Shown: positions 32,086-36,939 of the stretch, one piece after another
Layout: each line of letters opens with the position of its first letter
Numbering within the stretch: position 1 is the stretch's first letter
Source of the DNA: Pseudomonadota bacterium
Lineage (GTDB): Bacteria > Pseudomonadota > Gammaproteobacteria > Competibacterales > Competibacteraceae
Assembly (NCBI GenBank): GCA_030917925.1
Contig: JAUPTV010000011.1
Location: 1-41,541 of the forward strand
Length of the DNA: 41,541 bases
Direction of reading: 5' to 3'
Made by a program: the position numbers and the translations under genes
Notes under the pieces: model-generated
Database searches by the model: none
What the model saw: only the letters and a program-made list of their open reading frames with translations
Told to the model about the DNA's origin: nothing

Positions 32086-33231
32086 TCAAAAAGGTTCTTC
32101 AGGATGATCGGCATAGCGTTTAGCAATCTGGACAAACTCGTCCATCAGGGCCAGAAAGGCATCGACAATATCGGGATCGAAGTGCTTGCCGCGTCCTTCA
32201 GTGATAATGCTGACGGCCTGTTCCAGGGGAAATGCCTCCTTGTAATGTCGCCGGGAGATGAGCGCATCGAAGACATCGGCCAGCGCCATGAGCCGGGCCG
32301 CTACCGGGATCGCATTGCCGGCGAGTCTGCTGGGGTAGCCGGAACCGTCCCATTTCTCATGATGCCCACCCGCGATTTGCCGGGCGGTTTCGAGAAAAGC
32401 CAGGGGCGAATTGGCAGGTTGGGATCCCGCACGGCTGCTGACATGGTTGATTGCTTCGCTAATGGTGTCAGCGCCGATGGCGGCATGGGTCTTCATAATC
32501 TCGAACTCTTCCACCGTCAGCTTGCCCGGTTTCAGCAGAATGGCGTCGGCAATGCCGACCTTGCCAATATCGTGCAGGGGCGCGGCCTTGGCAATGCGCT
32601 GGCGCTGCGCGGTGTCAGCCAGTTCGGCGGCAAAGCGCGGATGATCGCGCAAACGTTCCATTAGCGCCTCAATGTAGGCTTGCGTCCGGTGCAGATGGTT
32701 GCCGGTTTCGTTGTCGCGCTTTTCCGCCAGCAGCGCCAGACTGTGCAGACTAACATCCTTGATCAGTTCATTCTCGGCCATCCGGCGGCGCACTTCGCCT
32801 TCAAGGTAACTGTTCTGATCGGCCAGCCAGTCCCGCGCCTGTTTGAGTTCGAGATGTGTGCGCACCCGCGCCAGTAAAATCGCTGGTTTGATCGGCTTGG
32901 CGATGTAGTCCACCGCGCCGAGCGCCAGTCCGCGCTCTTCGTCTTCATCGGCATCCATGGCAGTCACGAAGATCACGGGTATATCGCACGTCCGGGGATC
33001 AGCCTGTAGTTCAGCGATGACCTGGTAGCCGTCCATTTCGGGCATCATCACATCGAGCAAGATGAGCGCAGGTACGGGCGGATTGACGACCGCCTTCAAG
33101 GCTCTCCGCCCGGAATTAGCGACGCGTACTTGGTAGTAAGGTTGCAATAACTGACCAATGACGGTCAGATTTTCCCGCGTGTCGTCTATAATCAGAATCG
33201 CCTGTCGTTTTACCGCGTCTTCAACGCTCAT
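32086..33231 (-). CDS. Response regulator with HD-GYP c-di-GMP phosphodiesterase
   Basis: About 381 residues: receiver domain (10-130) with Asp16-Asp17 and phospho-acceptor Asp60, a coiled linker, then an HD-GYP domain with HDIGKVGI and HHEKWDGSGYP, the metal and substrate motifs of active enzymes that hydrolyse c-di-GMP. The start is ATG 33231, chosen because AAGGAGG lies five bases upstream; a TTG five codons earlier has no ribosome site. It is divergent from the GGDEF-EAL response regulator across a 536-bp gap. No cognate histidine kinase is adjacent. Confidence 0.93.
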   Translation of the reverse strand: MSVEDAVKRQAILIIDDTRENLTVIGQLLQPYYQVRVANSGRRALKAVVNPPVPALILLDVMMPEMDGYQVIAELQADPRTCDIPVIFVTAMDADEDEERGLALGAVDYIAKPIKPAILLARVRTHLELKQARDWLADQNSYLEGEVRRRMAENELIKDVSLHSLALLAEKRDNETGNHLHRTQAYIEALMERLRDHPRFAAELADTAQRQRIAKAAPLHDIGKVGIADAILLKPGKLTVEEFEIMKTHAAIGADTISEAINHVSSRAGSQPANSPLAFLETARQIAGGHHEKWDGSGYPSRLAGNAIPVAARLMALADVFDALISRRHYKEAFPLEQAVSIITEGRGKHFDPDIVDAFLALMDEFVQIAKRYADHPEEPF

Positions 33232-33767
33232 CCAGTCCTCCTTCAAATCGTTATTTAAATGCGCGGTTTGTTCGATGTCATGTCCGCAGCGCGTCAGCCA
33301 TTTCGGCGAGCGAACCCTTGCTGCCGATGGCGTGGCGTAACCCCTGACGATAAAATGGCGCTATCAAGTCTAATTTTGTCACCCGATGGAAAACAAAAAA
33401 CCGGAGGTTTGTCAAAGTGATGGCCACGAAATTAACGTGAAACGATTTTTGAGTATAGACGCCCCCGGAAGGCGCTTCCGAATTATTCAGGTAATTTCCA
33501 ATAAAGCCCGCCATACTGGACAGAATGACACATTGTTGACGTGCTTTAACCACACGCCTTGTAGAAAAATTTTGAAAAAGCAGGCTAATATAACCTTTTC
33601 AGGAAATCGCCTCAGGCGCAACCGCCAGCCAATAACTTTTGGGGATATCGATCGTGACCCGCAAAAACCTGCAGGATGATCTCCGGAAATTGCCTGCTGA
33701 CGAGAGGTATCTTCACTTGAATGTTTCGACTCCAGCAACGCTTTGTAGCGACCGGGAGAAGGCGCGG
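33232..33767. promoter_or_regulatory. Divergent intergenic region between two c-di-GMP genes
   Basis: 536 bp without a convincing gene. It must carry the promoters for the HD-GYP gene (leftward) and the GGDEF-EAL gene (rightward). The middle (about 33350-33640) is AT-richer, with runs such as GAAAAATTTTGAAAAAG. An open frame at 33386-33679 (+) has no recognisable features and is probably chance. I could not fix specific operators or -10/-35 boxes. Confidence 0.5.
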
Positions 33768-36263
33768 ATGATCGGTGAAAATCAGGAATCAACGATAATG
33801 GTGGTGGATGATGCCCCGATTAATTTGAAAATTCTGGGGGTGTTGCTGCATCGACACGGCTACCGCGTGATGCAGTTTACCCGTGGCGAGCTGGCTTTGC
33901 GCGCTGCTGCCCACGAACCGCCGGAACTGATCCTCCTGGACATTATGATGCCGGAGATGGACGGTTTCGAAGTGTGTCGGCGATTGAAGGCAGATGAGGC
34001 GCTTCAGGCCATTCCCGTCATTTTCATTAGCGCTCTGGACGATACGGCAGACAAAGTTCGGGCCTTTACCGAAGGCGGAGTGGATTATGTCGCCAAGCCT
34101 TTCCAGGAACAGGAACTCCTGGCCCGCGTCAAAACGCATCTGAGCCTGCGCCGGATGCAGCGGGAACTGGAAAAACACCAGCGTGATCTGGAAGCGCTGG
34201 TCGATGAAAAAGTCCATCACCTGCACACCGTTCTGGATGCTGCTCAGGCCGGTACCTGGGAGTGGAATATTCAAACCAATGCCATTCAGTTCGATGATCG
34301 CTGGGCGCGTACGCTGGGTTACCAGTTGCAGGAACTGGAACCCACGACTCAGGCGACCTGGGAGAGCCGCGTTCATCCGGATGATTTACCCATGATGCTG
34401 AACGCTATGTCCCAGAATATGGACGGCGAGCGAGAGCGCTATGAAGCCGAGTACCGTATCCAGCACAAGAACGGTCAGTGGGTATGGCTGCGCAGTCTGG
34501 GCCGCGTGATGCAGCGAACGCCAAATGGCGAGCCGCTCCTGATGGTGGGCATTGATATTAATGTTACCGAACAGAAGACCCATCAGGCGAAACTGGAGTT
34601 TGTCACGCATCACGATGCGTTGACCGGGCTGCCTAATCGCGGTTTGTTCGCCGAGTTCTTGCGGGCGATGATGACCATTTGTCGCCGATCCCGGGCCAGG
34701 TTGGCAGTCGCCTATATTGATATCGACGGCTTTGCGGCTATCAACCGGATCTACGGTCGCCAGACCGGTAACCAGTTGATCATCGAACTGGCCCGGCGGA
34801 TACAGGAATCAGTGCGCGAGCGCCGCCATGTAGCGCGTATCGGCGGCGATGAACTGGCGGTGATCCTGAGCGGGCTGGAGCGAGCGGATGCATTCCGTGC
34901 GCCGGTGCAGCGCTTGATCGAGGCCGTGTCCCGTCCGATCGTTATCGATAAGCAGAATATCGTCATGACCGCCAGTATCGGTATCACCCTGTTTCCCCAG
35001 GCCGATAACGTGGATGCCGAGCAGTTGCTGCGGCAGGCCGACCAGGCGATGTACCAGGTCAAGCTGGCCGGCAAGAACCGTTATCATGTTTTCGATTCCG
35101 AGCATGATGGGAGCGTGCGCGAGCGGTATGAACGGATTGATGATATCCGCCAGGCGCTGATGCGTCAGGAGTTTGTGCTGTACTACCAGCCCAAGGTCAA
35201 TTTGCACAGCGGTGTCTGTATCGGTTTTGAGGCGCTGATCCGTTGGCAACATCCCGATCGTGGTCTGTTACCACCCGGCGCATTTCTGCCGGTCCTCGAA
35301 CAACATCCACTGTTGATCACGCTGGGCGACTGGGTGATCGAGGCCGCACTGGAACAACTGGCCGGCTGGAATGCCGACGGGCTGAAAACGACGGTCAGCG
35401 TCAATGTTGATGGTTTGCAGTTGCACGATCCCGAATTTGCCGCCCGACTCGAGCGGCAACTGCAAGCGCAACCGTCGGTGACGCCGCAGCAACTGGAACT
35501 CGAAATTCTCGAAACTGGCGCACTCGCGGACATGGCCCGGGTTTCGGCCCTGATTGAGGACCTGCAAGGCCGGGGGGTGGCTTGTGCGCTGGACGACTTC
35601 GGCACCGGATTTTCGTCGCTGACCTTCCTCAAGCGCTTGGCGGCGCATACGGTCAAGATCGATCAAAGCTTCGTTCGCAACATGCTGACCGATGTCGAAC
35701 AGGCGGTCATTATTGACAGTATTGTCGGGCTGACGCGCCGCTTCGAGCGTCAGGTGCTGGCCGAGGGAGTGGAAACCGAGCTTCATGGCAATCTGTTATT
35801 GGAGCTTGGCTGCGAACTGGGCCAAGGCTATGGCATTGCCCGACCGATGTCGGCCGACGCCGTTCCCAAATGGATCGCCAGTTGGCGTCCACCGGCGTCA
35901 TGGCGCGAAAGCAAGGCGGTAGTTTACGAAAATATGCCGATATTCTTCGCCGAATTGCAGCACCGCGCCTGGTTTGACGCCCTGCAAAATCATTTGGACG
36001 GTAGCGAATGTTCGCTACTGCTGAACTTTAATCAATGCAGCTCAAAACGATGGTTGCATAACATAGAGATTATCGAGCGCTTTGGTCACCGTGCCGACTT
36101 TATCGCGCTCGATGCGCTGCACGATGAACTCCACGCGGAAGCGGTCAAGTTCATGGCGTGGCGCCACGCACATCAGCCTGACAAAATCGAGGCATCCCTG
36201 CCCGAACTGCAGGCGCTGAGCAATCTGTTATTGAGTGAGTTGAAGCTATTGCGCCATTCGTAG
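33768..36263 (+). CDS. Response regulator-PAS-GGDEF-EAL protein with C-terminal CZB-like domain
   Basis: About 831 residues. The receiver domain (8-125) has phospho-acceptor Asp58. A coiled linker and a PAS domain with PAC follow (about 150-270), then GGDEF (about 275-440) and EAL (about 455-705). The GGDEF signature is GGDEL and lacks other substrate residues, so cyclase activity is doubtful. The EAL domain keeps EAL, Asn546, DDFGTG, Lys630 and AEGVET, so c-di-GMP breakdown is likely. The final 100 residues match a chemoreceptor zinc-binding pattern: His732 (HRAW), Cys757 and His785/His789 (HDELH). I chose ATG 33768 with AAGG six bases upstream; an earlier TTG frame is less likely. It is the only long plus-strand gene here. 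Confidence 0.9.
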   Translation: MIGENQESTIMVVDDAPINLKILGVLLHRHGYRVMQFTRGELALRAAAHEPPELILLDIMMPEMDGFEVCRRLKADEALQAIPVIFISALDDTADKVRAFTEGGVDYVAKPFQEQELLARVKTHLSLRRMQRELEKHQRDLEALVDEKVHHLHTVLDAAQAGTWEWNIQTNAIQFDDRWARTLGYQLQELEPTTQATWESRVHPDDLPMMLNAMSQNMDGERERYEAEYRIQHKNGQWVWLRSLGRVMQRTPNGEPLLMVGIDINVTEQKTHQAKLEFVTHHDALTGLPNRGLFAEFLRAMMTICRRSRARLAVAYIDIDGFAAINRIYGRQTGNQLIIELARRIQESVRERRHVARIGGDELAVILSGLERADAFRAPVQRLIEAVSRPIVIDKQNIVMTASIGITLFPQADNVDAEQLLRQADQAMYQVKLAGKNRYHVFDSEHDGSVRERYERIDDIRQALMRQEFVLYYQPKVNLHSGVCIGFEALIRWQHPDRGLLPPGAFLPVLEQHPLLITLGDWVIEAALEQLAGWNADGLKTTVSVNVDGLQLHDPEFAARLERQLQAQPSVTPQQLELEILETGALADMARVSALIEDLQGRGVACALDDFGTGFSSLTFLKRLAAHTVKIDQSFVRNMLTDVEQAVIIDSIVGLTRRFERQVLAEGVETELHGNLLLELGCELGQGYGIARPMSADAVPKWIASWRPPASWRESKAVVYENMPIFFAELQHRAWFDALQNHLDGSECSLLLNFNQCSSKRWLHNIEIIERFGHRADFIALDALHDELHAEAVKFMAWRHAHQPDKIEASLPELQALSNLLLSELKLLRHS

Positions 36264-36282: not shown

Positions 36283-36939
36283 TCATCGCCCCACTATCTT
36301 GTCCATACCGAATTTGCGGAAACATTCCGGGTCAATGCCCCGCTGAATACTCTTGGCATCTTTCAAGGGACTTTGGCATAAGCAACAACGGTTGGATTCC
36401 ATAGAAAAAATCGCCAGTGGATCTGCAGCAAAGGCATAATAAAAATCTCTGACAATTACGGTGTTTTCTGGTGGGCCGGTGATAGCAAGCCAGTTATCAC
36501 TGTGATCAACAACGCCGGCGAAAGGCTTATTATTGTGGATCAAGGCGATTTCATGACAATTATCAAAAAACAGTGTTTGGTATTTTCCATATTCAACAGT
36601 ACCGGATCGGTCCCGGACCGTAATTTTCCGATAAACGGGTTTGATAATGATAATGGCGTCATCATGGCCTGGAATTTGAAAATTCCACATCACATTTGAA
36701 ATATGGCGGTGGGGCTTATTGATCAATTCATCAGACTGTTGAAGGAAATTCCAGGCGACTAATGGAGTATTCGCATCATCTTTATCATCAAGCGACGCAA
36801 AGACACCGCCCTGTAATGACTCAACGGTTCTTTTTTGCCGGATTTGATCTTTCAATTTTCGATATAATCGACCTCCTCGCGAATTGGCAGGATGTTTCGA
36901 TAAGTCAGCGATTCGATCATCAATGGGAACTATAGGCAT
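36283..36939 (-). CDS. Orphan protein with DUF6011-like zinc motif
   Basis: A 218-residue protein of unknown role. The C-terminus (about 184-211) reads CCLCQSPL...SIQRGIDPECFRKFG, like the DUF6011 treble-clef pattern CxxC...S...GxGPxC, which probably binds zinc. The rest looks like a mixed beta domain with aromatic strands (ISNVMWNFQIPGHDDAIIII). DUF6011 motifs are frequent in phage and mobile-element proteins. The gene is AT-richer than its neighbours, which suggests transfer. The ATG has AAGGA eight bases upstream. It converges on the EAL gene with a 19-bp gap. Confidence 0.7.
   Translation of the reverse strand: MPIVPIDDRIADLSKHPANSRGGRLYRKLKDQIRQKRTVESLQGGVFASLDDKDDANTPLVAWNFLQQSDELINKPHRHISNVMWNFQIPGHDDAIIIIKPVYRKITVRDRSGTVEYGKYQTLFFDNCHEIALIHNNKPFAGVVDHSDNWLAITGPPENTVIVRDFYYAFAADPLAIFSMESNRCCLCQSPLKDAKSIQRGIDPECFRKFGMDKIVGR

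Follow-up and report, generated by a model that had tools for sequence, protein, structure and literature searches.

The window, by which we mean the whole 41,541-nt stretch of DNA analysed, carries at 33768..36263 of the + strand a gene whose 831-residue product (the window protein) has the domain order REC-PAS-GGDEF-EAL-CZB. The open reading frame spans 33639-36263 (+), with the stop codon of the gene ending at 36263. An in-frame TTG at 33639 is a less likely start than the ATG at 33768; the latter is preferred because it agrees with the start of an orthologue in another genome (G022, described below), the two proteins beginning at nearly equal positions relative to the receiver domain. This receiver (REC) domain (33795..34133, +; Pfam Response_reg, E 2.9e-28) has D14, D15, D58 and K110 of the phosphorylation site and is followed by a PAS domain (34284..34553, +; Pfam PAS_3, E 1.2e-22). 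The GGDEF domain, with the motif GGDEL (34608..35081, +; Pfam GGDEF, E 1.3e-41), and the EAL domain (35139..35846, +; Pfam EAL, E 3.6e-68) were also placed by alignment to solved GGDEF-EAL structures. The CZB core, residues 732-794 (35961..36149, +), is defined by Pfam, by the alignment and profile of related proteins and by an AlphaFold2 model of the tail; beyond it, the helical tail continues to 36260.

The nearest signalling gene in the window is a divergent neighbour (32086-33246, -) encoding a receiver and HD-GYP protein (Pfam Response_reg and HD_5), likely another c-di-GMP phosphodiesterase. It has close relatives in 25 of 40 genomes of the order. A conserved pairing of the two genes was considered and is not claimed, given that the search of G022, a genome that is 88% complete, returned no close relative of the neighbour. 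On the other side, and convergent with the CZB gene, lies a gene (36283-36939, -) for a 218-residue protein with several cysteines and a C-terminal match to DUF6011 (Pfam, E 4.2e-8).

Identity of the C-terminal domain

A first-pass annotation of this DNA had proposed that the tail is a CZB domain, and had named a profile search, a structure prediction and the conservation of the ligands in orthologues as tests. The residues that it listed are where it placed them: HRAW begins at residue 732, C757 lies within NQCSSKRW, and HDELH occupies 785-789. Aligned with relatives, they give the 3His/1Cys set in the order H-C-H-H, consisting of H732, the first predicted zinc ligand (35961..35963, +), C757, predicted to hold zinc as a thiolate from within the atypical loop CSSKRW (36036..36038, +), and the predicted ligands H785 and H789 (36120..36134, +). 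The tryptophan of HRAW, three residues past the first histidine, is the one published for diguanylate-cyclase CZB domains (PMC8262984).

The profile search does find CZB, weakly when the window sequence is taken alone. Pfam CZB (PF13682) matches residues 732-794 of the whole protein with E 3.5e-4 (21.3 bits) and the isolated tail, which no other family matches, with E 2.2e-5 (25.1 bits); a six-frame search of the genome gives 26.3 bits for the same tail. All of these single-sequence scores (21-26 bits) fall below the curated cut-off of 29.4 bits, and most fold-search hits are generic four-helix bundles, as might be expected if an amphipathic helical tail resembled CZB by chance. The relatives speak strongly against such a resemblance. 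All 11 related GGDEF-EAL tails used for comparison match CZB (best E 6.8e-14), and a profile built from the CZB part of these 11 sequences, with the window tail excluded, scores that tail at 98.9 bits, compared with 11.2 bits for the best of 2000 shuffles. H732, W735, C757, W762, H785 and H789 are invariant in the alignment of the window and the 11 relatives, and the position of the tail after EAL is shared across the whole family. Chance resemblance is thus practically refuted, and we give it almost no credence. The relatives supply the strong support that the Pfam match of the window tail alone does not, and the tail is, on comparison of sequences, a real but divergent CZB domain.

AlphaFold2 models the tail as a set of helices (mean pLDDT 81) covering tail residues 17-39, 55-60, 63-69, 72-97 and 101-127, as expected for CZB, although helical bundles are common. 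Searches with the model using Foldseek and VIA-align are not diagnostic: they returned mostly generic helical bundles and did not list the CZB domain of DgcZ, which is evidence in neither direction. DosC (PDB 4zvc) was among the structural matches with a Z of 10.7, a value that helical bundles unrelated to CZB also reach. When the PDB was searched by sequence with the isolated tail, no CZB structure came up, and the one match, to an aminopeptidase (E 0.34), is put down to chance. The full-length AlphaFold2 model (mean pLDDT 61, pTM 0.39) is too poor to indicate the arrangement of CZB and EAL.

Variation in the Cys loop and loss of ligands

The consensus of the CZB Cys loop is cysteine, a small or hydrophilic residue, a hydrophobic residue, glycine, any residue, a tryptophan-like residue and a hydrophobic residue; the glycine is nearly universal, and a side chain at its position would clash (PMC8262984). 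In the window the loop reads CSSKRWL against C-R-F/L-G-x-W, so that the Cys, Trp and Leu of the consensus are retained, while S759 replaces the hydrophobic residue and K760 the glycine. Among 58 distinct related tails, a set that includes a few on EAL-less or incomplete proteins, the glycine position is occupied by Gly in 42 and by Ser in six; Lys there, and Ser at the hydrophobic position, are each seen in the window tail alone. Since no more than 42 of the 58 have the Gly, its absence does not exclude membership of the CZB family, and the loop consensus beyond the cysteine is best described as typical and not strictly required. The two substitutions could nevertheless weaken the predicted zinc site, and the atypical loop may change zinc affinity or the reactivity of the cysteine.

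CZB lies directly C-terminal to EAL in the window protein and its homologues alike, and a survey of 370 genomes sampled from the class (Gammaproteobacteria) found GGDEF-EAL-CZB tails in 29. The genome from which the window comes has 34 EAL matches and three EAL-CZB proteins. Two loci of this genome (L003 and L004) have a CZB domain followed by what looks, by eye, like a CheW-like domain, so that EAL-CZB and CheW-CZB types are apparently both present in it. A scan of viral contigs found no CZB relative, just an end fragment of an EAL domain. Across the 58 tails, H-C-H-H is kept in 43 and at least one ligand is missing in 15; on a tree of 48 rows the ligand changes number nine by parsimony, of which well-supported branches force at least four. 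Because 15 tails have lost a ligand, zinc binding is not obligatory in the GGDEF-EAL-CZB group, where the full ligand site is common yet dispensable. The 3His/1Cys set is therefore less ubiquitous in these proteins than reported, its ligands having been lost repeatedly. Several tails have lost the cysteine, and often other ligands too, with the tail itself kept (L031, L038, L039, L079, L093, L116, L120, L122 and L127); these are apparent natural losses of the zinc site.

An orthologue in another genus

One genome of the order, from another genus of the same family (G022), encodes an 835-residue protein with the same architecture and 55% identity to the window protein. It is the sole orthologue found, and a tree of GGDEF-EAL sequences joins it to the window protein as its sister (100% support). 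Identity between the two varies from domain to domain, being 71% in REC, 44% in PAS, 56% in GGDEF, 70% in EAL and 29% in CZB. Against this low background all four CZB ligands are shared, as are W735 and W762, so that the test of ligand conservation set beforehand came out in favour of the assignment in the one orthologue available. The other histidines and cysteines of the window CZB have fared differently, six of seven being replaced (Fisher p 0.015 against the ligands kept), and the chance that four random CZB columns would all be identical between the two proteins is 0.006. Retention of the ligands in a fast-evolving domain points to selection on the site, as modest evidence.

The gene for the orthologue (L068, on G022:C97) sits between two genes for PAS-type sensor kinases, one of which reads, by eye, as a hybrid kinase. 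These may be its cognate kinases, and their presence fits the receiver domain of the orthologue.

The data above also bear on whether the CZB tail might be no more than a structural or dimerisation helical bundle, in which zinc is absent, or static and non-regulatory, and the Cys loop has degenerated. Replacement of the hydrophobic residue and the glycine of the loop by S759 and K760 would fit such a role, as would the 15 relatives that keep a tail without full ligands and the much faster change of CZB than of EAL relative to the orthologue. The joint survival of four ligands and two tryptophans at 29% identity speaks against it, and we regard a purely structural tail as rather unlikely, though to be taken seriously.

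Catalytic domains and likely output

The catalytic set of the EAL domain is complete (E488, N546, E579, D609, D610, K630, E666 and Q686), the signature reading EALIRW from residue 488. The GGDEF domain, with GGDEL at residues 359-363, retains both metal-binding aspartates, Asn326 and GGDE. In FKxIND, however, the Lys has become A323 and the Asp R327; also lost are the GHxxGD Asp (N335), the Asp of the RxxD I-site (Arg353) and the final residue of the motif (F to L363). The roles of these residues are well established for PleD-type cyclases. An active cyclase is expected to have intact nucleotide-binding residues together with GG(D/E)EF, and the window protein has neither. The cyclase domain is thus partly degenerate, several nucleotide-contact and I-site residues having been replaced, much as the first-pass annotation supposed, and its description of the protein as a likely phosphodiesterase appears reasonable.

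It might be argued that the main output is instead synthesis of c-di-GMP, or both reactions, with GGDEF an active cyclase under CZB control as in DgcZ; GGDE, both metal aspartates and Asn326 are after all present, and the orthologue retains both the GGDEF motif and the guanine-contact Asp. The substitutions A323, R327, N335, L363 and the I-site Arg make this improbable for the window protein. Residual binding of GTP by its GGDEF domain is possible, but on balance the protein more likely acts as a phosphodiesterase.

Proposed function

Taken as a whole, the best explanation is that the window protein is a response-regulator c-di-GMP phosphodiesterase with a metal or redox input through CZB, and we consider this probable, though far from assured. 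The domain order, the positions and conservation of the ligands, the complete EAL domain and the degenerate GGDEF domain are observed; zinc binding, phosphodiesterase activity, and the coupling of the two together with its sign, we infer. The protein would break down c-di-GMP through its EAL domain in response to two or three inputs, namely phosphorylation of the receiver, a signal sensed by PAS, and the metal or redox state read by the C-terminal CZB. The three histidines and one cysteine would most likely bind zinc, and loss of the metal or oxidation of the cysteine would alter the helical bundle and hence EAL activity. The precedent is E. coli DgcZ, in which the attached catalytic domain is inhibited by zinc and oxidation of the cysteine lifts the inhibition (PMC8262984); by analogy, it would count in favour of CZB control of an attached EAL enzyme. 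Also in favour of the explanation are the CZB profile and relatives, the ligands kept in the orthologue, the complete EAL set and the helical-bundle model of the tail. Counting against it are the changes in the Cys loop, the ligand losses in 15 of 58 tails, the single orthologue and the poor full-length model. We put forward more tentatively, as possible but doubtful, a fuller version in which switching of the phosphodiesterase by zinc or by oxidation of the CZB cysteine, with a relaxed loop shifting zinc affinity, is combined with two-component phosphorylation in one chain, giving a degradation counterpart to DgcZ.

Comparison with known CZB systems

The first-pass annotation set the protein against DgcZ; its placing of CZB after a likely phosphodiesterase stands, but the combination is not new, having already been catalogued in proteobacteria. 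The seven CZB subgroups of Perkins et al. (2021) include CZB-bearing diguanylate cyclases that also contain EAL, and EAL-CZB proteins (3.4%), which according to that paper degrade c-di-GMP (PMC8262984). In Acidithiobacillus, CZB is found on 62 GGDEF-EAL proteins; AFE_1712 and AFE_1725 of this genus are known members of the GGDEF-EAL-CZB and EAL-CZB types (PMC6416229). The window protein is a real, somewhat divergent addition to these catalogued GGDEF-EAL-CZB proteins. In common with the GGDEF-EAL-CZB and EAL-CZB types it has the 3His/1Cys site and the Trp of HxxW, and its CZB is C-terminal to EAL as in the Acidithiobacillus GGDEF-EAL-CZB proteins; it differs from them in its N-terminal receiver, its GGDEL motif and its Gly-less CSSKRW loop.

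In E. coli DgcZ (YdeH), too, a c-di-GMP enzyme carries a CZB whose four ligands are of the same types, but there the CZB is N-terminal, the GGDEF cyclase is active and EAL is absent, whereas the window CZB is C-terminal and degradation is the likely output. The CZB chemoreceptors (H. pylori TlpD, Salmonella McpA) share a C-terminal cytosolic CZB with the window protein; their output is chemotaxis signalling, in contrast to its predicted turnover of c-di-GMP. The c-di-GMP enzyme DosC also contains a CZB-like helical bundle, but as its middle domain (Pfam DosC_2nd, PDB 4zvc); unlike the window CZB, it does not lie C-terminal to EAL.

A 2022 review lists DgcZ as the only tested zinc-responsive c-di-GMP enzyme, and our searches of open-access literature turned up no CZB phosphodiesterase that had been tested. 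Control by CZB has been measured for the synthesis of c-di-GMP, in DgcZ, and for chemotaxis, with no measured phosphodiesterase case found; the window gene is one of many suited to asking whether CZB also controls the degradation of c-di-GMP.
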